From a virus: a DNA stretch of 64,000 nt. Numbering within the stretch: the first letter of the stretch is position 1; each line of letters starts with the position of its first letter. The notes beneath the pieces are model-generated. The model was not told the origin of the DNA. It did no database searches and saw only the letters and a program-made list of their open reading frames with translations. The DNA is taken from positions 110,035-174,034 of the IMG/VR virus record IMGVR_UViG_3300035158_000183; one strand, 5' to 3'. Shown here piece by piece: positions 22,695 to 43,304 of this stretch. A program made the translations under genes and the position numbers.

Positions 22695-24833
22695 CTACTC
22701 AGCGGCACTATCTGATTCCGCTGAAAGGCTTTCAAAAGTCAATTCGTCGGTAAACATATCCAATGCCTTCATTCTATCATAAATCTTCTGTGCATCGGAA
22801 ATTTGCCCATCGGCGATCAACTCTTTGATATTGTTGATAGCTTCCACGGCTGGAGCAGAGAGACCCTCTGGCAGCTGTGTATTGTTCTTGTCTGTGTTGA
22901 CTGTCGGGTTATCCACAGAGCCGTCTGGCTCACGAGACATCCCATCATTCAGTTTATTTACAATGACTTGCAGATCAAAGCCATCTGTGATGGCAGCTTC
23001 CTGCTTGTCGAGGTCTGCATCCTTGAGGGCCTCCTGAGCTTTCTCGATATCCTCGAATTTGCCATTCAGGACGCCTACTAAGGCCAAATTATCGGCTCTG
23101 GCTTTGTAGAGAGACGCGCCAAGCTCCACATAGGAGTCTACCTGTGCACGGTAGTCCTCGTATGCTCTCTGCAGCTCTCCACGGAGAACCTGGAGAGTAT
23201 CCTGCAGGCTTTCAAGCTCCTGCTTGGCCTCTGTGGCTGCTGCCTCAGCTGTTTCAGCCTTCTCTTGGTGTACAGCACAGTCGCTGCAGTCACGCTGGAC
23301 CTTCAGGTCGCGGCTGATGAGTTCTAGCTCAGCTGAGTGGAATAGAGTGCGGAGATCCTCATTGTTGAGGTCTTTCAGCTGGTCCTCTGCACATGGTGAA
23401 GTGTTGCTGTCGGCTGGTGAAGTATCAGGCGCACTATCTGCAGAATCGTTGTTCTTGGACCCTCCACAGCCCAGGGCCTTCGCCTTACGTGCCACACATG
23501 CAAGAATCCTAGACTTATCGCCAGGACCCTTATAGCGGCCGATAAGTCGTCTGGCTGCTGTTACATGTGCACAATCCGGGACTGGGAAGGAACGATCCGG
23601 GCCACAGAATGTTGAGCCGGCTAGACCCTTACGCTGCTTGGCAGTAAGTCTGGCGTCAGCTGCGTCAAACTCTTCCTGCGTAATAAGCCCTTCATCTAAC
23701 ATAGCCTTAAGCTCAACCTGCATATTGTCTGCTACTTCATCAGCATTTACTTTCTGATCTGCTGTTTCCAGGTCTTCCAGAGCATACTGAATCGCTGTTT
23801 CCTCATCCAGCTCAGCCTCTTCCTGGAATGGGAAGAACTCGGCGTCGCCCTTGAGAGCTGCGATCTTCTGCGCAAAGTCAGCCAAGACCTTCTCCTCTGC
23901 TTCCTTGCGGAGCTTCTTGAGGGTCTCAAAGACCTTCTTCTCAGCATCAGAAAGAACGATTTCGTCTTTAGCTGATTTTGCCATATCGTCCTCCTTGTTG
24001 TGGTAATCCTTAAACTCGAAGACAGTATCCGTAAGAATATCAAATACTTCCTCTTGTTTATTAAGTACAGTTACTACCTTATTATTGTCAGCGTTAGCCT
24101 CATCCATAATCTGGACAGCCACTAGAGTGTCGCCCTCCAGAGCTACGAAGCTAGTCTCTAGGTATTGGTGTACGCCAGGGATGGCCAGGGCGGGGAACTT
24201 ATGACCATCCTCTGCATCATCCTCGTACATTTCCCCCATATCGTGCTCGCAGAAGCCATCGGCGGCCCAGTTTTGGCCACAGATCAGGCAGTGTGCGGCG
24301 CCTGGGGAGCGGAAATGTGTGGATACGGCGTCAAAGCGGCCATCTCTGACCTGCTCAATGGTTTCCTTGTCATAAATGTCAGCATACAGCTCGATGTAAC
24401 CAAGTCCTCGCCACTCTTCCTTCTCCGTGATACCAGCACGCATAAGGTTTCTGGCAGCCTTCAACTGGTCCTTCATGGGAGCACTACTGCTCATAAGGGA
24501 CTGGATGTCAGGGTTATCCTGTAGCTCTTCAGGTATAGTCGGGACGAACCTGGCGCTACGAACTACACCTACTGGATCCGATTCTAGATCGTGGTGCTTA
24601 AGGATCTTGGTGGGCTTTTCGCCTACCCTGAAGGTGCCTACTCCTTCAGCCATGCGCGATGGGATATAGAAACGCCTATTCCGATTTAATACCCCAGCAT
24701 GGCTAGCCTCCATGCGGATACGCAGAGCCTTAGATAGAGGGGCCGCACTGAGAAAATCCGTCCATTCATCGACCTGTTGCTCTGTAGGCTTGGTCAGCCT
24801 AAAGTAGTCAGTGAACGTAAGATTGATTGTCAT
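22695..24833 (-). CDS. Prohead maturation protease fused to scaffold-like region
   Basis: I place the start at ATG 24833 (9 nt after AAGGAG), giving 712 residues; a longer frame begins at GTG 24860. The N-terminal third resembles head maturation serine proteases. It has the HAGVLNRNRRFY motif (His45), a LKHHDLESDPVG segment near 80, and VSTHF with candidate Ser171. A zinc-knuckle-like CLICG...C.H cluster follows at 182-197. The remainder is acidic, coiled-coil-rich scaffold-like sequence. It includes a conserved-looking RSFPVPDCAHVTAARRLI element (about residue 410-430) known from phage scaffold or capsid-assembly proteins. Confidence 0.75.
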   Translation of the reverse strand: MTINLTFTDYFRLTKPTEQQVDEWTDFLSAAPLSKALRIRMEASHAGVLNRNRRFYIPSRMAEGVGTFRVGEKPTKILKHHDLESDPVGVVRSARFVPTIPEELQDNPDIQSLMSSSAPMKDQLKAARNLMRAGITEKEEWRGLGYIELYADIYDKETIEQVRDGRFDAVSTHFRSPGAAHCLICGQNWAADGFCEHDMGEMYEDDAEDGHKFPALAIPGVHQYLETSFVALEGDTLVAVQIMDEANADNNKVVTVLNKQEEVFDILTDTVFEFKDYHNKEDDMAKSAKDEIVLSDAEKKVFETLKKLRKEAEEKVLADFAQKIAALKGDAEFFPFQEEAELDEETAIQYALEDLETADQKVNADEVADNMQVELKAMLDEGLITQEEFDAADARLTAKQRKGLAGSTFCGPDRSFPVPDCAHVTAARRLIGRYKGPGDKSRILACVARKAKALGCGGSKNNDSADSAPDTSPADSNTSPCAEDQLKDLNNEDLRTLFHSAELELISRDLKVQRDCSDCAVHQEKAETAEAAATEAKQELESLQDTLQVLRGELQRAYEDYRAQVDSYVELGASLYKARADNLALVGVLNGKFEDIEKAQEALKDADLDKQEAAITDGFDLQVIVNKLNDGMSREPDGSVDNPTVNTDKNNTQLPEGLSAPAVEAINNIKELIADGQISDAQKIYDRMKALDMFTDELTFESLSAESDSAAE

Positions 24834-24846
24834 ACTGTTACACTCC

Positions 24847-27800
24847 TTAGCCACCGACACCCAATTCGACCGTGCAGGTACAATGGGGGTGTAAAGGTGG
24901 CAGTTCTTCGTAGATTATAGCATCTGAGTTTTTGTAATTCAAAGGATGTTTATCACAGATTTCGCAAGGTTCACTTCCGTGACGGTGAGAAACCAGCTCT
25001 TCGAAGTCCAAAACCCGGTATCCACTGGCCTTGCCATAGTTGTAGGCCCTCATAATCTCACTGTTGTCTATCATGGCTGTTCTGTGGCGCAGGGCCTGTA
25101 GCATCAGGCCGGCGAATATGGCATCCTCAGCCTTCAGGCCTGGAGATTTCATAGTATACCGATCTAAGCTCTGAATGACCTCTTTCCTGAGTTTCATCAT
25201 ATATCTGGTGATGTGGTCGTTGATCTTCTCGTCAGCTCTCCCGGCATTTACTTGCCATATTTCGACATTTATGTCTCGTATACCCTGTCTATAGGCTTGG
25301 CGGGCCAGTAAGCTGAGGCGTTCTGCTGCCTTGCCGAAGGCTGCGTCTACCATAACCTGGAGTTCCTTGGTGCGGGCACCACGGTTCCGGATCTGGATAT
25401 CGATATCATTTCTGAGGATATCGTAAGCTGTCTGAAGAGGCGGCTGCTGGCTGAATATGTAATCTAGTGTAGGAACGGCATTTCGCAGGCCGAAGTTGTC
25501 CTTGTTGACCTTGGCACTGGCTCTGGTGCCATGCTGGTTAGCAGGCTTGTTCTTATTAGTAACAGAGTTGCCGCCAGCAGACTTGGTTTTGTTTTGTGCC
25601 GTTCTGGAGACTGCTTCGGACTGGGATGTTGCAGTTCCTGGCTCGTCGAGGGACTGGAGTATAACCTTGTCTCTCTCGATCAGCCCATATTGAGTCATAG
25701 CCCAATCTCCATCACCCTTCACGAACATACGACCCTTGCTATTGGAGGTCGGCCAACCCTCACCCTCAAATGGCTCGTAGCCTAGCTCGATACGCATCTC
25801 TGGATGGGTGATGGCGTTCTTCAGGAAGATATCCACAAAGTGATTCTCTTTAGCCTGGCGGGCCTCGAAGTCAATCTCCTTGAACTTGAGGTATACCTTG
25901 TTCTCTTCGTCGAAGAGCGAGCCATCCGAGAAGGTACTCTCCAACATGAGTTCGCGTATTATGAATGACTCGAACTGTGAGGCAAATTCTTTCTGATCAG
26001 CCTTGGTGTCGTCGATGAGGTTGCGTGACATGGTCTGGGCAGTAGAGTTCCCCTGAATGCTGATCTTTCCATTTCTTCTAACAACTAATACATGATTCGG
26101 GACCTCAAAAGCCCATACCTTGTCTCTGTAAAAAACCTTTTTGATTTGATGATCTCTTACTTCGACCACTGTCTTTGGATGGATATTAATCCTGCCAACG
26201 CCCTTATGGGCTGGTCCTAATGAAGACCGAAGACCCAACCTTGATGTTAGTTCTTGTATACCATCTAACAGCTCTTTACTACTTGAGCTATATGAAAAAC
26301 CCTTACGACCTGGCCTAGAATCATAAGATCCATCTCCTGAAACCAAAGCCACAAGAAGTAACCAAAGTTGTTTTGCTGGTAGGTTTAGAAATTCTCTTGG
26401 AATCTTTTTGTTATCGCTATAAGTACCAACATTCTCTGCCAAATATGTCCAAAGCGATTTACAATTTATCCAGAACCTAGAGCAAGAATCAGAATCGTTT
26501 ATATACTCATTAAACCTAAACGGCAATCTCTCAAGTACTGTTCTAATCTTGATTACTTTTTCAGGATTAGTCTTATTGCTTTGAGAGATAGAGATAGCCC
26601 ATTTATTATCTTGTTTGGCTAAAGTTCCCTCGGATATAAAATACCCTAAAAACTCAAGCCAATCATCCATGTCTATATTATTAAATGGACCAAGGTTGTC
26701 ATGATTGGTTATATTAGGGCTATAATCTACTTGAGGAAGATCAAATGTAGACTGTTCTGTCCCTTCTACTTCTGATGGAGAAGCTAATAAACAAAACTTC
26801 TTTACGTCAATATCTTGAACTTCTCTTAACTCCCAAGTAATTTTATCTTTCCAGCCAATTCTCCCAAAATATAATTTGTGATTTGGCGTCACGACAAGAT
26901 CAACATGACGATTACTAATCTTATAAAGTTCCCCCTCATAATCATAAGTAAGCAAACCATCAACTGGCTTCTGAAATTCTAATTGTTGGGTTTCAGGATT
27001 AATAGTACCAACCTTGTCACCATCCCTATAGTCCCAATAATTTTTCCAACCAGAATCTGTAAGAATTTGGGTCTGGTTATCAAAACACCGGTTGGCTGTA
27101 CCACCCTCACCCATATCCACCGAGCTATTGCCAAGACCAGTAAATATCCTCTGCTTGAAGTGAGCTATTACCTTCTCAACTGCTACGGGGCCGGCCTTGG
27201 TAGCCAGTGGAATGATTTCGTGCCGCTCCGGTGTAACCCAGCAACCATCTGTAGGCATTTGGGCCACCTTCAACTGTATCTCTTGGACTTCATCTTTACC
27301 ATCGGGGTTCACAGCAGCAGGGTTATTCTCTGTACCAACCTTGTAGTGGAATAATGGGAAAAGATGCTGGTAGACCAGAAGCTCTATATTCTCTTCAATA
27401 CGGCGCAGAGCGCGGATATCATCCTTAACTGAGGCCAGAACAGGGGTACCCACAGAGTAGCCCTCCCGCTTGTCATAGTAGAAGTGTACCACGTCATCAG
27501 GGCTGAACTCCTTAGCGGTCTTGCCGTAGACCTCCTGCTGGTACTTCTTAAGCCTACCGTATTCGTCTCTCTTGAATCTGACAGTCTCCGGAGCCATTAA
27601 GAAGTAACCCGCTACAGGCTGTAGCTTCTTGCCGTCAGGTGTAGTTCTGACACGACCGCCAGATGCCGGCTCCTTGCGCACCTTCACCCAGAAGGCATTC
27701 GAGGTACGTATTAATGCCCAGATAGTCTGGCTGATCAGGACCGGGAACGGAGTTCCGGTAGCTGTTTCCATTTGCTGGAAGCGTCTCTTGACATAACGCA

Positions 27801-28104
27801 CCCTCTCGGGCTTGGTTCCAACAAACTCGTAGCCCTCCTTCAGGAACAGGTTCTTCTTATTGCGGAATGCTCTGCGAACATAGGATTCGGTATCTATGAT
27901 ACGCCCACATTCTGCCAGATCCCATTCTGGAGCCTCCCAGCGCAATGATGGGGCGCGAGACCTGCCAATATTATTTGTGTATACCTTGGTGGGTGCTGGG
28001 ATGACCCTGGGTATAATAGCTCGCTTAGTCGTTCCCTTTGGCCCCTTACCAAAGCCATCATTCTTGGGCACTATAGTTTTAGCTGTGGTAGATGCCTTAG
28101 CCAT
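24847..28104 (-). CDS. Portal protein with intein and C-terminal MuF-type domain
   Basis: The ORF encodes 1,085 residues. Residues 340-686 are an intein, leaving about 738 residues. The portal region (extein residues 1-560 or so) contains PDDVVHFYYDKREGYSVGTPVLASV and the intein insertion site GGTANR|STAQTMSRN, both typical of phage portals. The last 200 residues form a Mu gpF/SPP1 gp7-like minor head domain. It ends in the signature CEICDKHPLNYK ... LHPHCTCTVEL with paired Cys and His. Portal-MuF fusions are known but less common than separate genes. The portal forms the dodecameric packaging channel. Confidence 0.88.
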   Translation of the reverse strand: MAKASTTAKTIVPKNDGFGKGPKGTTKRAIIPRVIPAPTKVYTNNIGRSRAPSLRWEAPEWDLAECGRIIDTESYVRRAFRNKKNLFLKEGYEFVGTKPERVRYVKRRFQQMETATGTPFPVLISQTIWALIRTSNAFWVKVRKEPASGGRVRTTPDGKKLQPVAGYFLMAPETVRFKRDEYGRLKKYQQEVYGKTAKEFSPDDVVHFYYDKREGYSVGTPVLASVKDDIRALRRIEENIELLVYQHLFPLFHYKVGTENNPAAVNPDGKDEVQEIQLKVAQMPTDGCWVTPERHEIIPLATKAGPVAVEKVIAHFKQRIFTGLGNSSVDMGEGGTANRCFDNQTQILTDSGWKNYWDYRDGDKVGTINPETQQLEFQKPVDGLLTYDYEGELYKISNRHVDLVVTPNHKLYFGRIGWKDKITWELREVQDIDVKKFCLLASPSEVEGTEQSTFDLPQVDYSPNITNHDNLGPFNNIDMDDWLEFLGYFISEGTLAKQDNKWAISISQSNKTNPEKVIKIRTVLERLPFRFNEYINDSDSCSRFWINCKSLWTYLAENVGTYSDNKKIPREFLNLPAKQLWLLLVALVSGDGSYDSRPGRKGFSYSSSSKELLDGIQELTSRLGLRSSLGPAHKGVGRINIHPKTVVEVRDHQIKKVFYRDKVWAFEVPNHVLVVRRNGKISIQGNSTAQTMSRNLIDDTKADQKEFASQFESFIIRELMLESTFSDGSLFDEENKVYLKFKEIDFEARQAKENHFVDIFLKNAITHPEMRIELGYEPFEGEGWPTSNSKGRMFVKGDGDWAMTQYGLIERDKVILQSLDEPGTATSQSEAVSRTAQNKTKSAGGNSVTNKNKPANQHGTRASAKVNKDNFGLRNAVPTLDYIFSQQPPLQTAYDILRNDIDIQIRNRGARTKELQVMVDAAFGKAAERLSLLARQAYRQGIRDINVEIWQVNAGRADEKINDHITRYMMKLRKEVIQSLDRYTMKSPGLKAEDAIFAGLMLQALRHRTAMIDNSEIMRAYNYGKASGYRVLDFEELVSHRHGSEPCEICDKHPLNYKNSDAIIYEELPPLHPHCTCTVELGVGG
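26047..27087 (-). mobile_element. Portal intein (LAGLIDADG type, 347 aa)
   Basis: The intein starts at Cys340 (CFDNQTQILTDSGW), with block B VTPNHKL. Homing-endonuclease motifs are FLGYFISEGT and LVALVSGDGS, both with the acidic residue. The exit is KISIQGN followed by Ser. The penultimate residue is Gly rather than the usual His, a substitution tolerated in some functional inteins. The DNA is clearly more A+T-rich than the portal exteins, indicating separate ancestry. Confidence 0.93.
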
Positions 28105-31435: not shown

Positions 31436-33388
31436 CTAGATATTGGTACGCGAAGGTCGTTGTTTATGTACATTAGCGCGGCGACGCTTTCTTTGCAACC
31501 ATTCAGCTTTACGTTGTGCTTCCATATCGCTTTCCCAGCCAACCCGATTGGTCTTGGCCACATCAGCAGCACTACTAATTCTACCAGGCATCATGTATGA
31601 TTGCCTACTGTTAGCTGGGATTTCTTCCATACGGCGATCTTCTGGACGATGGATCTCTGGTCTAGCCTGTTGCTGGTCAGCTATTCGGTTCTCCCGGTCC
31701 TGTAGAGACTCTGGCCTCTGAACAGTACGTGGATCTGGAACCGCTATTACTGTAGTGATAAACTTAGAGGCATGTAGGTCATCGAACTCCAGGTGGAATG
31801 CCACCAGAGCTAGGTTGAGTGCATCTAGCCGGTGATCCAGAACCTTAGGTTCACGGAGGCCAAAAACCTGTACCTTAGTGGGCGTAACACGCTCTACAAT
31901 ATAGTTTCGTAGCTGCTTCTCCAAGACATGGTCATGAGAGGAAATAATAATTCTCTCCTGCTCAAAAGCCCTCACGGAAGCACTGACCATGAACGGTTTG
32001 GCTGGCTTCTTGATCTTCTCATGGGTGATAGGGTCACGCACCTGCAGAGATGCCCCGGAGTCATATTTCTTCAGTATATCCAGTAACTTAGCAGTCTGTA
32101 AGTCCCCGCCCTTCCTGCGCTCTTTGTAAGCAGTCTGTCTCAATAGCTCATAGTTAGTACTCCCGCCTCCGGCATCAATATACACAAACGACGGTCGCCA
32201 CTTCCTATTCATTTCCAGAAGCTTTTGCACACCAGTGAGCTGTGTGAACTCAGTCTTAGGCACCAGCACTGCATCTACTATCTGGAATTTGCCAGTGAAA
32301 GTATTATGCCCTACGACTACTATCTCCGTACCATGCTGCTCGTTCCAGTCAGTGCCAATACAGTACCTCCATGTAGATGACCTCTTGTGTTCGCCGTACT
32401 GGTAGTCCGTAAGAGCCGTATCGATATACTCAGGTTTATAGACGCCCGCTTCCGAAGAACCCCACTCTGCCAAGTACTCATGGGTCCAGTCCTCCTCAGT
32501 GAAAGAGGAGCGTTCCATCTCCACATTCTTCCAGTGGGGCAGCACCTTGTAGTTATGATGGTACTCCTTATAGTGTGGGTTTCCAGTACAGAACTTATAG
32601 TATGGTGTCTGAAAGCCAGATGGAGTTGAGAATCCTACCAGTGCAGTATCAGGAGATGTCTGCAACAGCGGGATGACAGCGCCAGTAATAGCCTTCTCGT
32701 CAATATAGTCCATCTCCTCCAGGTACAATCTGTCAGCATCCTGTCCTCGGATAGAGACACCCTCAGATTTGCCCTTGGTGCCGGCAGCAAAACCACGGAG
32801 TCTTGCACCATTGGTAAGCTTGATCTCATAGTATGGCGCAGATACATCACGCACTACCATATTAGCTAACTCTGGATTGCTATGGATAAACGCCCGGACT
32901 CTGGTGATAATTTCTTCAGTATGGGATTTTTGTGGACCCGCTACCACTATCTTGATATTGGGTTCGGTAAATAGGTAGTAACATATCTCAATGCAGATCA
33001 GGTCGGTTTTGCCAGTACGTCGAGCAGTCCGGAGGACTTTACGCCTGGAGGTACAGCGCAAAATGCGTCCCTGGTACCATCTGGCTATCCATGGATCGTC
33101 TGTCGGAAGCTTAAGGTACCGCGCAGCCCACTTCACAATATCAGCTACTGCTTCCAGCTCCGCCCATGCCTCATCCGTAAAGGCAGTTCTCATATTTGGG
33201 TCTAGTTGGTTCCTGGGTATCCCTGTACAGGGAACTAGAAACTTACCACGAGCAGCCTTGCCATGCTCATCGACAAACTTCTCATATTTCTTAAGCTGTT
33301 TACGGACACAGTCGTGGCATTGATCTTCGACCTCATCCAGGACGAAGGGTAGCTTAAACTTCCGCAGATCCGTGCATGCATCTTCCAT
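31436..33388 (-). CDS. terL: Large terminase subunit
   Basis: This 650-residue protein carries both terminase activities. The ATPase has Walker A TARRTGKT (residues 121-128), an adenine-motif region upstream, Walker B LYLEEMD (221-227, with tandem Glu) and coupling motif FSTPSG near 253. The nuclease is RNase H-like with acidic residues Asp347 (GTDWNE), Asp405 (VYIDAGGG) and Asp522 (HRLDALN). Length is within the usual 450-750 residue range. It docks on the portal, translocates DNA into the prohead and cuts concatemers. Confidence 0.92.
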   Translation of the reverse strand: MEDACTDLRKFKLPFVLDEVEDQCHDCVRKQLKKYEKFVDEHGKAARGKFLVPCTGIPRNQLDPNMRTAFTDEAWAELEAVADIVKWAARYLKLPTDDPWIARWYQGRILRCTSRRKVLRTARRTGKTDLICIEICYYLFTEPNIKIVVAGPQKSHTEEIITRVRAFIHSNPELANMVVRDVSAPYYEIKLTNGARLRGFAAGTKGKSEGVSIRGQDADRLYLEEMDYIDEKAITGAVIPLLQTSPDTALVGFSTPSGFQTPYYKFCTGNPHYKEYHHNYKVLPHWKNVEMERSSFTEEDWTHEYLAEWGSSEAGVYKPEYIDTALTDYQYGEHKRSSTWRYCIGTDWNEQHGTEIVVVGHNTFTGKFQIVDAVLVPKTEFTQLTGVQKLLEMNRKWRPSFVYIDAGGGSTNYELLRQTAYKERRKGGDLQTAKLLDILKKYDSGASLQVRDPITHEKIKKPAKPFMVSASVRAFEQERIIISSHDHVLEKQLRNYIVERVTPTKVQVFGLREPKVLDHRLDALNLALVAFHLEFDDLHASKFITTVIAVPDPRTVQRPESLQDRENRIADQQQARPEIHRPEDRRMEEIPANSRQSYMMPGRISSAADVAKTNRVGWESDMEAQRKAEWLQRKRRRANVHKQRPSRTNI

Positions 33389-33392
33389 AATA

Positions 33393-34211
33393 TTACCTAT
33401 GTACGAACATAGCTTCCCGGCCCAGGAGGGACCGGGCAGACATGGTGCCGCGATTCATCATGGACAGAGATTGCTGTCTCATGGTGTGGGCCCGTTGGGT
33501 GTTGAAGGCTGGGCTTTGTACGCCCCAGTTGAGGCGACGCTTGCTCTGTTCACGCTCTACTAGCCTGTCGGGAATCCTGGTTAGGGCTTCTGTCATACTA
33601 CCACCGGCTATCGCTCCCGCCATACCACCAGCCAGGTATCCTACGCCTGCACCTATGGCTGTGCCCACAATTGGTATAGCACTACCTATGGCTGCACCAA
33701 TACCCATACCAGCTTTGCTGCCTACTTCCCAGCCTATAAAGTCTGCAATACCTATAGTGGCACCTCGAGCGGCCTCAACACCTTCCTGGCCAGCACCCGC
33801 CTCCATAGCGCCTAGGGTGGCAAATATAGCAGAGGTTACAAAAGCTCCTCCGAGAGCATACTTGATAGCACCGGCTCCGGCAAAACCTCCTCCGCCCATC
33901 TTCCGAGCTTCTTTCAAGGCCTTGGCAATGCCAGTGTCTCCCTTGTGCATCCTCTGAAGCTCTGTAAGGCGCCTGATATATTTCGGGCTGCCTGCAGCAT
34001 GTTTGTGCCGCCATGGGTTTATCAACATTTCCTTACGGTTAGGAGCAAATATTGTAGCCGCCATTCCGCCCCTGGCATAACTCTTGGCGAATTGTGCCCG
34101 ACCCCATTGGTGAGCACGATATCTTGCACGCGTTCCCAGGTCAGCCCCGGGAGGCGGTCGATCTGGTTGTCCGGTAAACCAGTTGAGATACGGATTGGAA
34201 AAATCTGCCAT
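33393..34211 (-). CDS. Gly/Ala-rich membrane-active protein candidate (272 aa)
   Basis: The 272-residue protein has a basic N-terminal third. A long Gly/Ala/Ile-rich hydrophobic region at about 110-210 includes GSKAGMGIGAAIGSAIP and AIGAGVGYLAGGMAGAIAGG, with GxxxG-type repeats that favour helix packing in membranes. The C-terminus is Arg/Met-rich. It lies upstream of terminase with two other glycine-rich proteins behind a sigma70-like promoter. An ejection or membrane-pore role is an inference. Confidence 0.6.
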   Translation of the reverse strand: MADFSNPYLNWFTGQPDRPPPGADLGTRARYRAHQWGRAQFAKSYARGGMAATIFAPNRKEMLINPWRHKHAAGSPKYIRRLTELQRMHKGDTGIAKALKEARKMGGGGFAGAGAIKYALGGAFVTSAIFATLGAMEAGAGQEGVEAARGATIGIADFIGWEVGSKAGMGIGAAIGSAIPIVGTAIGAGVGYLAGGMAGAIAGGSMTEALTRIPDRLVEREQSKRRLNWGVQSPAFNTQRAHTMRQQSLSMMNRGTMSARSLLGREAMFVHR

Positions 34212-34239: not shown

Positions 34240-34731
34240 TTAATAGCTACGATTGGATCCGAGTATGGAGTTTCCGATATAGGCGCCAGATCCCATACCC
34301 AGAGCTGCGAAACTTCCTGCACCCCATTTGTTAATACTCATAAAATTACGACCAATCAAGGCATTAGCTCCACGCGCACCGGCCTGTAGGTGTCCGCCAC
34401 CCACAATAGCAGCAGATCCTAGCCCCCCTAATTTACCTTGATTACTCATTATTCTTCCAGCGCCCCAGTCCATCATACGTCCGCCCGCCCCAGCGAGTCG
34501 GTTAGCCCCTGTGCCCAGAGCACCTGCGATACTTTTGATTCCATGTCCGCGACCCAGTGCGCCAATTCCTCTTGCAGCAGGGCCCAAAAGCATACCAGCT
34601 GCTGCGCCGCCCAGCGCTCCGCCTGCTATACCACCATAATCTCCCCAGTCGCCAACTGCCCCCATGGCTCCACCTGCAGCGGCACCAGCGAAACCTCTAC
34701 CTATTAAGCCTCTTGCGAAAAATCCTGGCAT
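34240..34731 (-). CDS. Gly/Ala-rich hydrophobic protein with SNRSY C-terminus
   Basis: This 163-residue protein is almost entirely Gly/Ala with periodic Arg (RGFAGAAAGGAMGAVGDWGD, GGAAAGMLLGPAARGIGALG). It ends SILGSNRSY, closely matching the STILESNRPY end of the next upstream gene, so the two are paralogues. Composition suggests glycine-zipper membrane helices. Confidence 0.6.
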   Translation of the reverse strand: MPGFFARGLIGRGFAGAAAGGAMGAVGDWGDYGGIAGGALGGAAAGMLLGPAARGIGALGRGHGIKSIAGALGTGANRLAGAGGRMMDWGAGRIMSNQGKLGGLGSAAIVGGGHLQAGARGANALIGRNFMSINKWGAGSFAALGMGSGAYIGNSILGSNRSY

Positions 34732-34747
34732 GTTGTTGATCTCCTAA

Positions 34748-35170
34748 TTAGTAGGGTCGGTTGGACTCTAATATTGTTGAGCCGATTAGTCCTGAAGCGC
34801 CTATTCCCCCAGCCGCAGTAAGGGCTGTTGTCAAGCCACGACGAGTAAAGCCTCTTCCTCCTACCTCTCGCATCCCCTCTATTAGAGGCCCAGTCCTACC
34901 AAACCAGCCCCCTGCCGCAGCATTACTACGCATCTTACTGCCCAGAAATGCAAATCCACGACGGCCCCATCTACTTCCCATTAGTGCACCGGTTGCGGCG
35001 CCAAAGCCTGTACCTGCTAGTTGGCTTTGATCACCACTCATTAAAGCACCACCTATTATGGAGTATCCCAGACCGCCCACGCCTCCTCTAACTGCGCCAG
35101 CGCCGACACCTCGGCCCATACCCAAGCTACTCGGAACACCAGCAAACCAAGAAGGTTTAAAAAATGCCAT
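34748..35170 (-). CDS. Gly/Ala-rich hydrophobic protein with SNRPY C-terminus
   Basis: This 140-residue protein is the first gene after the promoter at 35202-35230 and has a strong AAGGAGG ribosome binding site. Glycine-zipper-like segments (GRGVGAGAVRGGVGGLGYS, GTGFGAATGALMGSRWG) alternate with basic residues. Shares its C-terminal pattern with the 163-residue gene downstream. Confidence 0.6.
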   Translation of the reverse strand: MAFFKPSWFAGVPSSLGMGRGVGAGAVRGGVGGLGYSIIGGALMSGDQSQLAGTGFGAATGALMGSRWGRRGFAFLGSKMRSNAAAGGWFGRTGPLIEGMREVGGRGFTRRGLTTALTAAGGIGASGLIGSTILESNRPY

Positions 35171-35201: not shown

Positions 35202-35230
35202 ATTATAGTATGATTTTATACTCCTGTCGA
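35202..35230 (-). promoter_or_regulatory. Sigma70-type promoter
   Basis: Reading leftward: TCGACA at 35230-35225, a 17-bp spacer, then TATAAT at 35207-35202 (5 of 6 and 6 of 6 consensus matches). It overlaps the 3' end of the 1,638-residue gene. A start site near 35195 would give a leader of about 25 nt before the ATG at 35170. It would transcribe the glycine-rich trio and terminase. Confidence 0.7.
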
Positions 35231-38200
35231 GGCAAACTTCTCATGTCTATGCCCGGCTCCACGTGAAGCCCTCAGACCGATGCCCACAGCAGCCTGGCTG
35301 TCGTTATAGAATCTCTTATTGCGCTTCAGTATGTAGTCATCGTAGCGCTGGCGCTTCTGAGCCCGCCAATTCACTAAATATTCTGAAGCCTTACGCTTGC
35401 GTCTTGCCTGATATTCATTCCAGGCCTTATAAGCTTTCTTCGTTAGCTCCCGACGGCTTATTTGGTGGCTCTCTAGATTTTGATCCCATAGTGGGCTTTC
35501 CGTGCTAGGATTATAACCAGAGCCAAACTCAGAAAAGCTTTTGACCATTTGGCCGCCTATCGAGTGCTCTGAACTGGGATTTATTCCATGTAGTTTAACG
35601 GTATCCTTCTTGCGGCCAATTAACATATTCACAGCTTCTTCTACATCAGGCTTCAGGTCCTCTATCCAATTTACTGGGGCTTCAGCTACAATGCCAGGCC
35701 GTGGGACACCCTCTACAAGACGTATTTTTAGCAGCTGCTCCTCTTCAAAGCGCCACTGTTCCATCATCTTGAAGAAGTCTTCATGCTCCCCACCACCAGC
35801 TAGTAATTTAGCTCTGTCTTCAGCTTTCTTCATTTCACGCTCTGCCTGACGTAGCTTAAACGCGTTATCCTGCCGCACCCTGACCATATTAGCAAAATGC
35901 TGCTCGCCCTTGAATCCCGCTAATTCGCCCCCTAGTGGCGCTGATAGAGGTTGTAAAACCGGCCTTTGAGCAGCATGCGCTGCTCGGCGTTCTCGGACAA
36001 CGCGAACAAACTCCTCCTCGCTGGAGAATTTACCTATCAGTGGCCTAGAGGGTCTCCTGAATATCTTGCCCAAGAATCTAGGCATCCAGCCAGAACCAAA
36101 CTCAGAATGGGCTCTAATAGATTGAGCGCCGAGATCTTCTGAGCCGGGGTGGATGCCATCTATAGGCTGCAAGGCTTTATTCGGCCCACCACCTATAGTG
36201 TCAAGTACAACATGTACATCTTGTTTGAGCCCAGCAGATTTGGCTCTGGCCAGATGCTCCTCCATCTTTCCCCAGTGGTATGCCATGGACGCTTCCATTG
36301 TAGCCACAGGCGACTGGACGCCAGCTGCTCTAGAAGCCATTCCGAAATCAATCCAAGATACATGTCCGCTTTCGGGACTGTAAAGGATGTTGGCCATATT
36401 GGGGTCGATATTCATCCACCCCTTGCCGACCACACCCGACATCTGCTTTCTCATCTCGGATTCGATATGCTTCTTAGGAACGGATATTCCCATCTTCCTC
36501 AGTTCGTAGATAGGAGTACCGGGCATGTACTCCATAAATAAGCGATCATCTTTCAGGCCATACGCCGTTGGGGTGATCTCTCCAGAAATTTCTCGCAGAA
36601 CATCGTATTCCTTCCTGATGGAACCTACAGACCTCTGCTTCAGAAACTTCAGTGCTTTAGGAAATTCTCTACTTTCCTTCAGGACATACTTGAAGGCGTG
36701 ACCTTCAACCTCAGACTCAAACAGATGGGCCATTCCAGATTGCCCATGGCCAAGTTTTTTGACCTCCGTTCCCTTCTGAAGGGCAGAAGCAAATCTTCTA
36801 CTACTGAGGAGTTTCTTATAGGCCTCTTCTGCCGGAAGGTCCTTGAATATTTTTCTGGCTATCTGTCTTAAAGGATCCCAGCCGCTACCGAACTCAGAGT
36901 GAGACCGCACAGACTGAGCCCCCATGCCTTCTGAGCCAGGATGAAGACCATTTATAGGCTTATAGGCTCTGTTGCGCCTTGGGAAGCGTCGAGCATAAAC
37001 CTCATTGTAGTATGCTAGCTCTTCTTGATAGGTTCGCCAGAGGCCTGGTAGATCTTTAACTTCCTCTTCAAGTTGAGCCCGCTCCCGGGCAGACTCTCTT
37101 TCCATAGTCTCTATAGAAGCACCATACTGTATATCTTCTTCGGCCAGACGACCAGCTTCTAGATCAGCCATCACCTTGGCCTTCACGCGCTCAAGCTTCT
37201 CTACATCAGCTTGGAACTTAGCCTCATCGAATGGGACTTCTATCATCGCCCTCTCGGAAGGGTCTTCACGGCTGATGTATTCTAGATAGCCCTTCTCTTG
37301 GCCGAGAGCATGCATGTAAAACCGCAACTGAGCCTCATGCTTCTTAAAGGCTCCACGCTCTCTGATATGCTGTAGCCGTCTAGCACTGACTGTCTTGATG
37401 TCGCCTGGTATGCCGCCTGGATAGAGAACATCAATAAACCCTGCCATGCCCAACTCTGGGTCATGCACAAATCTTTCGACATCCTCTACCTCACCACGCG
37501 CATACTGAGCTGCCTCAAAGAATCTGTGGCCCGCCACACCAGCCATGGAGGCTGCTGTCAGCATCTCAGTTTCTCGCTGCTCCTCGGTAAGATACTTGTA
37601 GATTTCCCTCTCGCTTGCCCCTAGCTTACTTGGAGCGAAACGTGTGTACTTAGGTACCTCTTTACGCTGGTGCCACTCAGGTTGTAGCCATGGGTTGGGC
37701 CCCCTATAGCCAGAACCGAAGTCTGAGTGTGCTCGCATGGCCTGGGCGCCCGTACCTTCAGACCCGGGGTGCATACCCTGAATCCTATTAAATGTGAAAC
37801 GTCCAGGGTGTCGGATATCTTGCCACTCGTCCATCGCCTGCTGGAGGGTTTCTTTAGAGATTTCCTCGGTAGCAATCTTATGGTAGTCAGCTACCTGGTA
37901 TAGGCCGACAGCAGTACGCCGGAGGTGCGGTGGGACCCAGCGTGTATACTTTTCAACTACAGACTCCAGTTCCGGATTCTGTGGAAGTGTGTATGTTCCT
38001 ATATTGTATACCTGTAGGGCGCCTCGGTGAGCAAACATCTCGTTGGCTACCCATTCCACATAAGGGTTATCCGGGTCTTCTCGGACAGTCTGTTGGGCTA
38101 TTCGGATATTGCGGTTGTAGACTGGTGCCTTGGCGGCCAGGTGAGCTATATCTTCCTTAGAGGTCATCCTGCCGCTCAGCAGCTGCCTCTGGGCTTCTCG

Positions 38201-40132
38201 GATGAAAGTAGCCTTATCTTCTGGGTCGATATCCAAATCCCAGAGAGCATGAAGACCTTCATGCAGTGTCGTCTCTCGAACCTTGATTGGAGAGATGTAC
38301 TTCATCAATTCTCTGGTCCCATAAACTCCTGCCTTGCTGGTTATATGGGAACCTATAATAACTTCACTGGGATCGAGGATACCGCCGATGTTTAGCTCGT
38401 CCTTGGCAGGATAATAGGAACCAAAGGCACCTATAGATTCTCTCTCTGTAAAGGCGGCATTAACCTTAGCAAGATTCTTATAGTCTCGCCAGAAAATTTC
38501 ACGTGATAGCACCTTGAAGGCATCAGGCCCACTAAGCATCAGCATAGACTTGTCCATCTCTTGAGCCCGCACTGCCTTGCGTACCAACTTGCGGTACTCT
38601 TTAGCAGTTAGCAGCCTATCCTCCAGCATCTCCTTCTCAATAGTTGGCTGTGTAATACCTCTGTAGCCAGACCCGAAGTCCGTGAGTTGCCTACGGGTAC
38701 GCTGTGCCATACCTCCGTCCCGCATACCCTCTATGAGCTTATAGTCCTCATCCCTGGAGGAGATGGCCAGCCCTACTAGCCCTAGGCCAGCCACAACACC
38801 GGCACCCTTGAGCGCTCCACCCCAGGTAGGTTTGAATCTCCTGATATCTACAAACGATCTATTAGATTTAATCTCGGGATAGAACTTACCCAGATGCTCA
38901 TGAAATGGTCTGGCGTACTCTGCCTCGCTAGCCAGCATCTTAGAGGCATAATCCTGAAACCGCATACCCTCGTCAATTAGCTGCAACTTCTGACCCGTAC
39001 CACGATGTACGGCTGCCTGGAAGACATCGAAGTTCTGCAGGAAAGTCTGTCTGGCGGCTTTGTGGTCTTTAAGTTTATCCCAGATAAACTCTGTCATTTG
39101 CACATCAAAACCAGCACCATGGGCACCTATCGCTGCTCCCTTGAAGCCTAGTGTCTCGGCCACAGCAGCCAGCTGCCAGCCTCTAGGTTTCAGCCTGAGG
39201 TCTTCGAACATACCAGCTTGCCAGCCCACTACCTTCCTGCCTATGGTATTGGACAGAAAAGCTTGGGTATGCTCAGCGACATCCAGAAGGTGAGTCTGCT
39301 TGAGGGCTCTATGTAGCTCATCCTGCAGCCCATGTCGAGAGGCCTGCTCCATGAGTATTGGGATATCAAACTGCTTTATGTTGTACCCCATTACAGTGCG
39401 ACCCGGGGTGAGCTGTTTGATAAACTTCTTGACTACTTGCTTCTCGGTAAGAGTGGTCTGTCCGGAGACTGCCAGGGCCTGCCGATACTTCGGGATGATG
39501 GTTTCCTCAATATAAGGATCATATCTCTTGGTAGGGTCCAGGTGCCCAAAGAACTCGGAGACCTGGCCACGCTGATGCATGCCAACAGTAAGAATACGAG
39601 AATCTCTACCCAGGAGACCTGTGGTTTCGAGGTCGAATATAAGTGGGTCCACCACACCAGGTCGCTGGAGGGCCTTCATCACTGAGACATCTGCCAGCCC
39701 TTCAAATAGTGGAGCACGGCCAGTGGCCTGACCGAAGCTGACAACGCCTCCGAAGAGACTACGGTTAACACTCTTGGCCTGGAGGCCTCTCCCACTGCCC
39801 CTGGTGTACTCTACAGGGTTAATGGGGACTCCCCACTGGTCAGGACCATAGTAGCTAGGTAGGTGGCCCAGCTCTAGTCTGCGCTTATGGTAGAACTGCC
39901 ACCAGCGCTGCCCACTAGTCTCCTTGACAGTCTCTTCCAGATAGTTCCGGACGAAGAATAGCTCTTCCTGGGTCCTGGCGGCCCGGATGAGCTGCTCAGG
40001 AGAATACAGATGCATTAGGCTCTTATCTATCTCGCGGAACCAGCGATTCCTGTACTGCTCCCAGATAGGTCGGCCAGGGGCCTCTAGAATATCATCTAGT
40101 AATTCCGATATGTTAGGATCTTGTGTGGGCAC
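35216..40132 (-). CDS. Modular multi-enzyme protein: exonuclease, metallopeptidase, PD-(D/E)XK nuclease, kinase
   Basis: This 1,638-residue protein has a GTG start at 40132 after AGGTGA. Four enzyme-like modules are separated by five copies of a 27- to 30-residue repeat. Residues 160-355: DEDDh exonuclease with IFDLETTG (Asp167, Glu169), YNIKQFD (Asp256) and GAHGAGFD (His338, Asp343). Residues 495-780: HEXXH peptidase-like domain, HEGLH at 624-628, with possible third ligand in VEWVANEMFAH (Glu693 or Glu698). Residues 815-1055: PD-(D/E)XK nuclease, GHRFFE, Asp901, GDIK (Asp911, Lys913), Gln935 and Tyr939 in the RecB/Cas4 style. Residues 1085-1320: kinase fold with G-loop LGHGQSG, Lys1152, Asp1243/Asn1248 and DFG (Asp1262). 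The final parts (1350-1513 and 1541-1638) are helical and basic. A hydrophobic helix lies at about 437-458. It sits among packaging genes; virion packaging and delivery to the host is my inference. Confidence 0.8.
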   Translation of the reverse strand: MPTQDPNISELLDDILEAPGRPIWEQYRNRWFREIDKSLMHLYSPEQLIRAARTQEELFFVRNYLEETVKETSGQRWWQFYHKRRLELGHLPSYYGPDQWGVPINPVEYTRGSGRGLQAKSVNRSLFGGVVSFGQATGRAPLFEGLADVSVMKALQRPGVVDPLIFDLETTGLLGRDSRILTVGMHQRGQVSEFFGHLDPTKRYDPYIEETIIPKYRQALAVSGQTTLTEKQVVKKFIKQLTPGRTVMGYNIKQFDIPILMEQASRHGLQDELHRALKQTHLLDVAEHTQAFLSNTIGRKVVGWQAGMFEDLRLKPRGWQLAAVAETLGFKGAAIGAHGAGFDVQMTEFIWDKLKDHKAARQTFLQNFDVFQAAVHRGTGQKLQLIDEGMRFQDYASKMLASEAEYARPFHEHLGKFYPEIKSNRSFVDIRRFKPTWGGALKGAGVVAGLGLVGLAISSRDEDYKLIEGMRDGGMAQRTRRQLTDFGSGYRGITQPTIEKEMLEDRLLTAKEYRKLVRKAVRAQEMDKSMLMLSGPDAFKVLSREIFWRDYKNLAKVNAAFTERESIGAFGSYYPAKDELNIGGILDPSEVIIGSHITSKAGVYGTRELMKYISPIKVRETTLHEGLHALWDLDIDPEDKATFIREAQRQLLSGRMTSKEDIAHLAAKAPVYNRNIRIAQQTVREDPDNPYVEWVANEMFAHRGALQVYNIGTYTLPQNPELESVVEKYTRWVPPHLRRTAVGLYQVADYHKIATEEISKETLQQAMDEWQDIRHPGRFTFNRIQGMHPGSEGTGAQAMRAHSDFGSGYRGPNPWLQPEWHQRKEVPKYTRFAPSKLGASEREIYKYLTEEQRETEMLTAASMAGVAGHRFFEAAQYARGEVEDVERFVHDPELGMAGFIDVLYPGGIPGDIKTVSARRLQHIRERGAFKKHEAQLRFYMHALGQEKGYLEYISREDPSERAMIEVPFDEAKFQADVEKLERVKAKVMADLEAGRLAEEDIQYGASIETMERESARERAQLEEEVKDLPGLWRTYQEELAYYNEVYARRFPRRNRAYKPINGLHPGSEGMGAQSVRSHSEFGSGWDPLRQIARKIFKDLPAEEAYKKLLSSRRFASALQKGTEVKKLGHGQSGMAHLFESEVEGHAFKYVLKESREFPKALKFLKQRSVGSIRKEYDVLREISGEITPTAYGLKDDRLFMEYMPGTPIYELRKMGISVPKKHIESEMRKQMSGVVGKGWMNIDPNMANILYSPESGHVSWIDFGMASRAAGVQSPVATMEASMAYHWGKMEEHLARAKSAGLKQDVHVVLDTIGGGPNKALQPIDGIHPGSEDLGAQSIRAHSEFGSGWMPRFLGKIFRRPSRPLIGKFSSEEEFVRVVRERRAAHAAQRPVLQPLSAPLGGELAGFKGEQHFANMVRVRQDNAFKLRQAEREMKKAEDRAKLLAGGGEHEDFFKMMEQWRFEEEQLLKIRLVEGVPRPGIVAEAPVNWIEDLKPDVEEAVNMLIGRKKDTVKLHGINPSSEHSIGGQMVKSFSEFGSGYNPSTESPLWDQNLESHQISRRELTKKAYKAWNEYQARRKRKASEYLVNWRAQKRQRYDDYILKRNKRFYNDSQAAVGIGLRASRGAGHRHEKFASTGV
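35507..38737 (-). repeat. Five-copy linker repeat within the multi-enzyme protein
   Basis: Copies lie at nt 38657-38737 (residues 466-492), 37697-37786 (783-812), 36869-36955 (1060-1088), 36080-36166 (1323-1351) and 35507-35593 (1514-1542). The core pattern is [IL]-x-G-[IM]-[HN]-P-[GS]-S-E ... G-[AG]-Q ... H/F-S-[ED]-F-G-S-G-[YW]. Copy 1 is the most diverged (GMRDGGMAQ...LTDFGSGY). The repeats fall exactly between predicted domains, so they are likely flexible linkers, docking sites or processing sites. Confidence 0.85.
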
Positions 40133-40142
40133 ACAGAGTCAC

Positions 40143-40937
40143 CTACTTGGCTTCCCAGTCGGCCTCTTCGATTGACTCGTCAGCTAGCTTTTCAGCGTCA
40201 GCCTTGATGTCTTCTATGGAAACGCCCTTCCTCTTGGCCATAGCACCTATAGCTTCCTTCAAGTAAGCGAAGTGCTGGCCAACATCGCCATCCTCACGGC
40301 GCTTAAGAGCAGCAGCTCTCTTGTATTTCTCTTTCCTGGTAGCCGCCAAGCTCTCTAGAATCTGCGCCCTAACCTTCTGGACCTTGTCCTTCACCTCTAG
40401 TATGGGGTGTGGGTTCAGGGTCTCGGAGGTAGCCTTGTCACCCTCAGTGACGTCCAGGCGGAGCAGATTCCATGCCTCCTCATCCGTCGAGAGACCATTA
40501 TTAGCTCTATAGTCAATTATATCGCATTCTACTAGCTTATTAACAAGAACCATCTCAGTCCGGCTCTCGACATCCACCTGCAGGTCCTCCACATAGCTCT
40601 GAAGCCAGGTGGAGATAAGATTTGCCTCCACAGGACAGGGGTCTGATATTGGATAATCTTGCCCATCATGGAACGGGCATGACTTGTTGGGGCATTTCTT
40701 CCCACCACAGAGCATGGGTATAGCGGCCGAGGTACCGACCTTCATCCTCACGATATGATTACGGAATTTGAGGGCCTGCTCCGGAGTCATGGTCTTCTCC
40801 AGCTTGGCCAGCTGTTGCCTGGGCAGCTCGAGAAAGTTAAAGAAGTCTGTCTTGGACACATTGCCCAGAGCATCTACCTGAGTGCCATCCAACTTCAGGA
40901 GAGCTGCCTTGGGAGTACCTGATCCACTGCCACCCAT
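40143..40937 (-). CDS. Cys-rich protein upstream of packaging genes, candidate small terminase
   Basis: This 264-residue protein has a Cys cluster MLCGGKKCPNKSCPFHDG...DPCPVE at about residues 75-104 that could bind zinc. It is followed by a helical region (LISTWLQSYVEDLQVD, LVNKLVECDIIDYRANN) and a basic C-terminal helix set. It is coupled to the terminase-like ATPase by TAATG. Small terminase subunits are the expected DNA-recognition partners here, so that role is plausible but unproven. Confidence 0.55.
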   Translation of the reverse strand: MGGSGSGTPKAALLKLDGTQVDALGNVSKTDFFNFLELPRQQLAKLEKTMTPEQALKFRNHIVRMKVGTSAAIPMLCGGKKCPNKSCPFHDGQDYPISDPCPVEANLISTWLQSYVEDLQVDVESRTEMVLVNKLVECDIIDYRANNGLSTDEEAWNLLRLDVTEGDKATSETLNPHPILEVKDKVQKVRAQILESLAATRKEKYKRAAALKRREDGDVGQHFAYLKEAIGAMAKRKGVSIEDIKADAEKLADESIEEADWEAK

Positions 40938-41488
40938 TACTTAGCCACCCAATTTCCTTCTAGCTCGGTCTGATACTGGTCATCAGTATAGTAGGTCTTC
41001 GCCTCGTGAACTTTATCCAAACCATCTTCAAGATACAGGCTGCCTGCCTGGAACTTAACAGCAGGATAGATATCCCACAGTTTCTTGGCCAGCGGAGGCT
41101 CTTCATGGTCATATATCTTGGGCGAGGAGAAGAGTATTTTCTGGGTATCACCCATAGCACTGAATATCAGCCCAAGAGCATCTTCTCTAACAGATGCGAA
41201 CTCCTCGACAAGAATACAATCGAACTCACGTGCTCTTATCGCCTCAGCAGTAGATGCGAAGAATACATTGTCGGTAGGGTCCATGCGTCCCTTGACCTCT
41301 TCCCAGATGGCTTTCACCGGTGCGAGTATCAGTAGGTGCTGGCCAGCAGCTGCTTTCTCGTTCGCAATCTCGACCAGCAGATCAGTCTTGCCAATTCTCC
41401 TCGGCAGGACCGCCATGACATGCATATCTGTGTCTATTGCAGTCTTGAGGATATTATGACAGAGAGCAGTTAGATCATTATTAGCCAT
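40937..41488 (-). CDS. Stand-alone terminase-like P-loop ATPase
   Basis: This 183-residue protein has Walker A PRRIGKTD (residues 29-36), an arginine-containing loop typical of terminase ATPases, and Walker B CILVEE (91-96). A motif III-like FSSPKIYD follows near 118. It lacks any nuclease domain and is much shorter than a large terminase. The ATPase centre may be fed by the Cys-rich protein encoded just upstream. The full-length terminase elsewhere in the window makes this an accessory or regulatory motor subunit candidate. Confidence 0.65.
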   Translation of the reverse strand: MANNDLTALCHNILKTAIDTDMHVMAVLPRRIGKTDLLVEIANEKAAAGQHLLILAPVKAIWEEVKGRMDPTDNVFFASTAEAIRAREFDCILVEEFASVREDALGLIFSAMGDTQKILFSSPKIYDHEEPPLAKKLWDIYPAVKFQAGSLYLEDGLDKVHEAKTYYTDDQYQTELEGNWVAK

Positions 41489-42521: not shown

Positions 42522-43304
42522 CTATGGGTCTACAGAATGATTTATGGCGGTAGGTCTGCGGACCTTGATCCTGCGGCTGTGGAGGAGGATCTCGTGTATC
42601 TTATTTACCTTGTCGCTGGTGTTATCAACCTTGGACTTCTGGGACTTGAGGGCACCCTTGATCTCTGTGATATCCTTGTTGTAGACCTTCTGCTGGACAT
42701 ACTTATCCTCGACATCCTTCTTGGCCTCTTCAGTGGCGAAATGATCCTTCTCAACGACATACTCCCTGAGGTCGGAGTGGGCCTTGCTGGCCCAGACTGC
42801 GGCACCCACACAGAGTGCCACAATGGTGATCACTGCCCCTATGGGGATAGCCTTGGTGGCCCTGCCATTTATAGGAGCCGAGGGCGGGTATGACTTCTGT
42901 TGTACTGCATACCTGATGGACCTCTCCAGATCATAGCTGGTCAGCCTGGGCTTATGGAGATAATCAGCCGCCCCAGCCCTGAGGAGCTGTGTATCAATTG
43001 GCTGATGTTCATTGCCTGTCATCACGATTAGGGGCACCTTCCATCCATTTCTGGAGGCTTCTTCCATGAGGTTATCCCCGTTTTGTCGGGAGAGTCGGTT
43101 ATCTACGAGGCAGGCATCATACTGTTTTGTGGCAAGGGCGATCTTGGCAGCGGAGTAGGTACTGACCCAGTCCGCCTTGAAGAATCGGCCATACACCTCC
43201 GTGAGCATGTCACGGGTCTTGTGGAAATCAGGTTCGGAATCTTCTAGTATAAGGACCCTGGTGATCTCAGAATCTGCCAGGGGGAAATCAGTATCTTCAG
43301 GCAT
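42522..43304 (-). CDS. Membrane-anchored CheY-like receiver domain protein
   Basis: This 260-residue protein is the first gene of the leftward unit. Residues 14-138 form a response-regulator receiver domain: acidic pair Glu21-Asp22, phospho-acceptor Asp68 (ACLVDNRL), Thr96 (VMTGNEH) and Lys118 (LHKPR), so all conserved positions are present. A single membrane helix follows (about 152-173, IPIGAVITIVALCVGAAVW). A charged, coiled-coil-prone region lies at about 175-240, with a basic tail. There is no DNA-binding or enzymatic output domain. It could intercept host phosphorelay signals at the membrane. Confidence 0.8.
   Translation of the reverse strand: MPEDTDFPLADSEITRVLILEDSEPDFHKTRDMLTEVYGRFFKADWVSTYSAAKIALATKQYDACLVDNRLSRQNGDNLMEEASRNGWKVPLIVMTGNEHQPIDTQLLRAGAADYLHKPRLTSYDLERSIRYAVQQKSYPPSAPINGRATKAIPIGAVITIVALCVGAAVWASKAHSDLREYVVEKDHFATEEAKKDVEDKYVQQKVYNKDITEIKGALKSQKSKVDNTSDKVNKIHEILLHSRRIKVRRPTAINHSVDP

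Follow-up and report, generated by a model that had tools for sequence, protein, structure and literature searches.

The closest described kind of protein to the one presented here is the polyvalent protein of phages and conjugative elements. In Iyer et al. 2017 (PMC5512222), polyvalent proteins are described as carrying 2–15 disparate effector domains per chain and as being encoded near late virion genes. Their domains include GNATs, HEXXH peptidases and kinases in which the C-lobe is reduced; injection is predicted, and some are processed. The same text describes a polyvalent-type kinase that has lost its C-terminal subdomain and has an insert between the catalytic His and Asp. It also notes that the virion RNA polymerase of phage N4 contains a peptidase domain, yet is packaged uncut.

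Here, we describe P0001, a phage protein which, like polyvalent proteins, brings together disparate activities in one chain and is encoded near late and virion genes. We show that its enzyme modules are separate units joined by a dedicated linker of ~27 aa and that related environmental myophages have gained, lost and rearranged such units at one fixed site, flanked by a small-terminase-like gene and the large terminase gene (TerL).

Results

The analyzed stretch of DNA (the window) is the terminal 64 kb of an IMG/VR virus record that is 174 kb long. The virus is a tailed phage; profile searches find TerL, capsid and contractile sheath genes in the window. The P0001 gene lies just ahead of TerL, with portal, capsid and sheath genes in the same operon direction. 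It starts with a GTG at 40132, preceded by AGGTGA and lying 11 nt after the stop codon of the upstream gene, and its frame runs uninterrupted to a stop at 35216. A frameshift fusion or annotation artefact was dismissed, given the clean single ORF and the long relatives on other contigs. P0001 and its neighbors are as follows.

31436–33388, minus strand: large terminase TerL (PHROG 2, 9e-34)
33393–34211, minus strand: 272-aa membrane protein, a conserved neighbor, downstream of the linker gene in 39/42 loci
34240–34731, minus strand: Gly-rich membrane protein, 163 aa (synteny)
34748–35170, minus strand: Gly-rich membrane protein, 140 aa (synteny)
35216–40132, minus strand: P0001, linker-jointed multi-enzyme protein, 1,638 aa; intact ORF, with same-place relatives on ~40 contigs
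40143–40937, minus strand: 264-aa Cys-motif protein, a small-terminase candidate named by position and by eye; directly upstream of P0001, and preceding the linker gene in 30/30 relatives with enough upstream sequence

Two genes before P0001, a 183-aa ORF (40937–41488, minus strand) resembles a shortened terminase ATPase (PHROG 2, 1.6e-5), and a second terminase-like fragment is also found upstream in several relatives. Further upstream of the packaging cluster is a 260-aa protein (42522–43304, minus strand) with an N-terminus that looks, by eye, like a response regulator; it has homologues near the packaging cluster in L008, L010, L024, L032, L038 and L067. A gene of the portal region (24847–28104, minus strand) is split by a LAGLIDADG intein, and a candidate prohead protease, named by eye and by position, lies at 22695–24860.

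The original prediction was of a single polypeptide, encoded in the packaging/virion operon, that combines four enzyme classes. It missed five junction linkers, a Gly-rich TM-like segment and two further C-terminal segments. From the N-terminus, the parts of P0001 are these.

38954–39643, minus strand: DEDDh 3′–5′ exonuclease module, residues 164–393 (Pfam RNase_H_2 4e-6, PHROG 192 6.7e-13, PADLOC DEDDh 2.2e-11)
38756–38821, minus strand: Gly-rich TM-like segment, residues 438–459, directly before linker 1 (sequence; hydrophobic segments are enriched before linkers)
38663–38743, minus strand: linker 1, residues 464–490 (linker HMM 1e-12)
37883–38608, minus strand: HEXXH module, residues 509–750, putative gluzincin-like peptidase (H624/H628 and E698 invariant in alignment)
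37706–37792, minus strand: linker 2, residues 781–809 (linker HMM 2e-11)
37004–37696, minus strand: RecB/Cas4-like PD-(D/E)XK nuclease module, residues 813–1043 (PHROG 1706 6.4e-10; invariant motif residues, 11 sequences)
36878–36964, minus strand: linker 3, residues 1057–1085 (linker HMM 7e-13)
36215–36853, minus strand: RIO/Bud32-like kinase module with a short C-lobe, residues 1094–1306 (ABC1 1.8e-6; AlphaFold and Foldseek)
36086–36166, minus strand: linker 4, residues 1323–1349 (linker HMM 1e-9)
35594–36082, minus strand: unassigned module, residues 1351–1513 (domain painting; no relative in the set)
35513–35593, minus strand: linker 5, residues 1514–1540 (linker HMM 5e-6)
35216–35512, minus strand: basic C-terminal tail, residues 1541–1638, ending GIGLRASRGAGHRHEKFASTGV, common to the nearest relatives (alignment)

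Profiles and conserved residues bear out three of the four predicted classes. The N-terminal module has the DxE, NxxxxD and HxxxxD motifs of a DEDDh exonuclease (D167/E169 in FDLETTG, N251/D256, and H338…D343 in HGAGFD) together with a profile match, that to RNase_H_2 exceeding the Pfam cut-off. The PD-(D/E)XK module has H869, G898-x-x-D901, K913, Q935 and Y939 in every one of 11 sequences; the H, D, D/E-x-K and QxxxY signature of RecB/Cas4-like nucleases is thereby conserved, again with a profile match, and the relative L024 matches the PHROG ‘Cas4-domain exonuclease’ at 8e-6. The kinase module, whose ABC1 match exceeds the cut-off, retains G1130, K1152, E1175, D1243, N1248, D1262 and G1264 in at least 24 of 26–27 sequences. 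Glycine loop, Lys, alpha-C Glu, catalytic Asp/Asn and DxG are hence all represented, as is the fold: AlphaFold models 188 residues with pLDDT of at least 90, and Foldseek matches this model to many kinases, the top one being RIO2 (9e-9). Past the DFG, the model has a single helix and then disorder, indicating a short C-lobe, while HxD spacing is normal in relatives.

The fourth class holds at the level of the motif. H624-E-G-L-H628 and E698 (in VANEMFAH), the HEXXH and distal Glu ligand of a zincin, are invariant in 5/5 aligned sequences from 4 distinct phages, which have 30–40% identity to the window. A chance HEXXH match is unlikely because HEXXH and the distal Glu are both invariant among the relatives. 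A confident fold was obtained for the kinase; the AlphaFold model of the HEXXH module is poor (mean pLDDT 51), and neither Foldseek, with this low-confidence model as query, nor a PDB profile gave a zincin match. Assignment of this module as a putative metallopeptidase remains a motif-level call. The key residues ascribed to each module are conserved in relatives, and chance motif matches were dismissed on this ground as the source of the enzyme calls. No relatives of P0001 were found in INPHARED or among PDB sequences.

A copy of the linker lies at each module boundary of P0001 (n=5), and copies also split the final ~300 residues (1350–1638). The consensus, YNTIEGLRHGGxAxxxRKxxTDFGSG[WYF], is two-part with variable central spacing, and occurs in up to six copies per polypeptide. 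It often follows FSGRDDx and sometimes a Gly-rich membrane-like segment; hydrophobic segments precede 13/97 linkers, versus 0.9% at random positions. Linker residues are invariant across very divergent phages, and identical linker residues share a codon 46% of the time, versus 41% expected. Codons are thus nearly randomised, meaning that the linker is conserved as a peptide, and recent DNA duplication was dismissed as its origin for this reason. Linkers are more alike within one protein (0.59) than between proteins (0.53; 0/2,000 permutations). Those that flank the kinase have low AlphaFold confidence (~50 or less, against >90 for the kinase core), and as modeled the linkers look disordered. 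Because the linker is apparently disordered, conserved as a peptide, repeated at junctions and co-varying within a genome, the data suggest an element recognised in trans.

The consensus was not found among the deposited phages of INPHARED, and a search of 84,980 prokaryote genomes gave no confirmed match. The family is easily overlooked because no deposited phage in the searched collection bears the linker. Scanning the remaining proteins of the 174-kb record with the linker HMM turned up no copy, on which basis a general capsid-targeting tag was dismissed. The two Gly-rich membrane proteins (34240–35170, minus strand) end in …GSTILESNRPY and …GNSILGSNRSY, as do, in similar form, their relatives. 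These ends resemble the linker-start ‘TM-SGRDDxY’, as though, speculatively, the linker were cut after Tyr. A protein at the same locus in another phage (L013:3324–6491) has a different repeated linker, NPIKGHDAGHWGRDQTFASGDFEPGSSWKG, likewise after Gly-rich TM segments; here, the junction peptide has itself turned over.

To gather the family, the linker HMM was applied to relatives fetched via TerL, followed by rounds via the kinase and the linker itself. This yielded 42 distinct proteins including P0001, of 464–2,419 aa, with 108 linkers. All linker-bearing members come from metagenomic contigs, some truncated and several near-duplicates; the non-redundant set comprises 39 proteins and 98 linkers. 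Domain HMMs built from the set identify 26 kinase, 14 SNase, 13 DEDDh, 11 PD-(D/E)XK and 5 HEXXH stretches, and ~20 further module types are unnamed. Pfam supports SNase in many of the proteins, and kinase and DEDDh in some; names other than these three and PD-(D/E)XK are provisional. The SNase module has no relatives in INPHARED. ATP-grasp, GNAT and ART labels, given by eye to some cargo modules, had no library support and were rejected. Among the commonest unknown cargo types is a recurrent module in which, by eye, an HExxE motif comes ahead of a conserved H…E (L010, L019, L034, L041, L051, L059).

The linker gene has a fixed address. In 39 of the 42 loci it is followed by the 272-aa-type membrane protein and TerL (the window’s TerL lies outside the short locus L001, yet within the window), and it comes after the 264-aa small-terminase-like gene in all 30 of these 39 for which enough upstream sequence exists. 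The three exceptions (L071, L072 and L077) are homologues of a second giant, a Gly- and TM-rich protein of 2,610 aa encoded in the window at 2194–10026 (minus strand) with three intein stretches (Pfam). These homologues carry the same linkers and nuclease cargo, so the same linker bears cargo on two giant proteins.

At this address, the modules are shuffled. None of the 98 non-redundant linkers falls inside a called domain (eight classes), against 26.7 expected from circular shifts (minimum 14 in 2,000). In a TerL phylogeny with 35 phages, 28 of which were counted once contigs cut at the linker gene had been set aside, the minimum number of changes in module presence is 7 for DEDDh, 6 for SNase, 5 each for PD-(D/E)XK and kinase, and 3 for HEXXH. 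Between the window and L038, identity is 65% in PD-(D/E)XK, 32% in the adjacent kinase and 53% in TerL, which is direct evidence of modules moving independently. DEDDh is always the first module where found. The order DEDDh, HEXXH, PD-(D/E)XK, kinase, for which no precedent was known, occurs solely in the window among the 42 proteins; P0001 is one member of a large family with constantly reshuffled orders. In L083, for example, DEDDh and HEXXH are followed by SNase, a further segment bearing an HERVH motif, and kinase, such that DEDDh-linker-HEXXH recurs. A C-terminal G-x-[RK]-x-H tail is seen in 21/35 proteins versus 41/502 control ORFs, a pattern picked post hoc; a shared tail is suggestive only, and a universal one was set aside.

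Discussion

Several features distinguish the linker family from polyvalent proteins. It has a dedicated, conserved junction linker (the word ‘linker’ has 0 occurrences in PMC5512222) and a fixed locus before TerL. Its SNase is not mentioned in that paper, and neither a DEDDh exonuclease nor a PD-(D/E)XK module was found in the passages on polyvalent proteins that were consulted. None of the polyvalent marker domains in Pfam (MPTase-PolyVal, LPD, ArdC-N and others) was found in P0001 or its relatives.

Among cultured relatives, Acinetobacter phage ME3 encodes a protein, ME3_11, at the same locus before TerL. Like the linker family, ME3_11 has an exonuclease-like N-terminus (FDTETTG), a Gly-rich TM segment and a C-terminal end resembling L063-type members; unlike P0001, it has a single module and no linker, and its exonuclease match is weak in Pfam (0.03). 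ME3_11 may be a one-module version of the linker protein. ME3_12, and gp006–gp008 of the cultured relative KLEB27-3, are likewise encoded at this locus. Another ME3 protein, ME3_9 (L021:4078–5373), matches the window’s 264-aa small-terminase-like gene (1e-10); it is annotated as an RNA (guanine-N1-)-methyltransferase, probably wrongly. The ME3 paper, a genome announcement, contains no virion proteomics, and we found no proteomics paper for the cultured relatives KLEB27-3 or MTATph1.

We give an even chance to the idea that P0001 is a polyvalent-protein-like phage effector array, in which the enzymes are swapped as cassettes and the linker is kept. The place of the gene in the operon, the mix of domains, which resembles that of polyvalent proteins, and the repeats at the junctions all agree with the earlier proposal of an injected effector borne by the virion, or of a polyprotein. 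Of the steps this implies, the most certain is that P0001 would be made with the virion proteins and ride in or on the particle. Somewhat less surely, it would enter the host with the DNA, aided by the Gly-rich membrane segments and the neighboring Gly-rich membrane proteins; polyvalent proteins, encoded near late genes (PMC5512222), are the precedent for such injection. Less certain still, the linker would be a recognition peptide that lacks structure and acts in trans, most likely as a processing site where the modules come apart, or otherwise as a loading or docking tag. Least certain, the enzymes may cleave DNA of the host or of rivals, and may proteolyse and phosphorylate targets in the host, with the variable set reflecting an arms race. 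Several points count against an effector array: no polyvalent marker domain was found, the linker motif is long for a protease site, and capsid-borne nucleases would threaten the packaged genome unless inactive or kept outside.

A related proposal, to which we assign about one chance in three, is a phage polyprotein, in which a factor of the phage or host, acting in trans, cuts the junction peptide, such that a virion-borne precursor frees a custom cocktail of nuclease, protease and kinase, and cassettes are exchanged at the fixed locus. Polymorphic toxins and processed viral polyproteins show cassette exchange at a fixed place and a repeated junction peptide. The linker family, with its conserved peptide repeated at domain junctions as in processed polyproteins, may be analogous to both, although its cassettes are swapped at all positions, not solely the C-terminus. 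HEXXH modules are missing from most family members, and the HEXXH module therefore cannot be a general processing enzyme.

There is perhaps one chance in four that the linker is instead a docking or loading tag for a capsid, tail or membrane partner, and that the protein works uncut. Docking retains this plausibility because the linker is long and consists of two parts, the spacing at its center being variable; TM-like segments often lie ahead of it, and it is also present on the second giant TM-rich protein. The N4 virion RNA polymerase, packaged uncut despite its peptidase domain (PMC5512222), is in line with such a role. However, up to six copies per chain would be redundant for docking one chain, and the linker occurs in no protein of this phage record besides P0001. 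We favor proteolytic release over docking.

It is rather unlikely, at around one in five, that P0001 is a late intracellular multi-enzyme protein for packaging and genome maturation (end trimming, debris clearing, phosphorylation to regulate terminase) that is never packaged and uses its linkers as flexible tethers. The location between a small-terminase-like gene and TerL and the several nuclease modules would suit this role. Yet the enzyme set is replaced time and again beside a conserved TerL, which is odd for a packaging machine, and neither the membrane-like segments before linkers nor the wide range of unrelated modules is expected of one. Least probable, and improbable in absolute terms, is that the linkers, though present at every exchange point, are passive spacers of no recognised function that spread as modules recombine: such spacers are normally low-complexity and without conservation, whereas here the peptide is conserved with its codons nearly randomised, and its residues are invariant across very divergent phages.

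Taken as an effector array, the enzyme set looks like an interchangeable toolkit against bacterial cells. If this is correct, the linker would serve as a sequence tag by which phage attack enzymes can be found, and each inter-linker segment a candidate host-takeover or anti-defence domain, many without a detectable family. The family would then supply new effector domains in large number, offer a natural design for virion delivery of multiple enzymes, and provide a counterpart, in phages, of processed viral polyproteins that can be put to the test.
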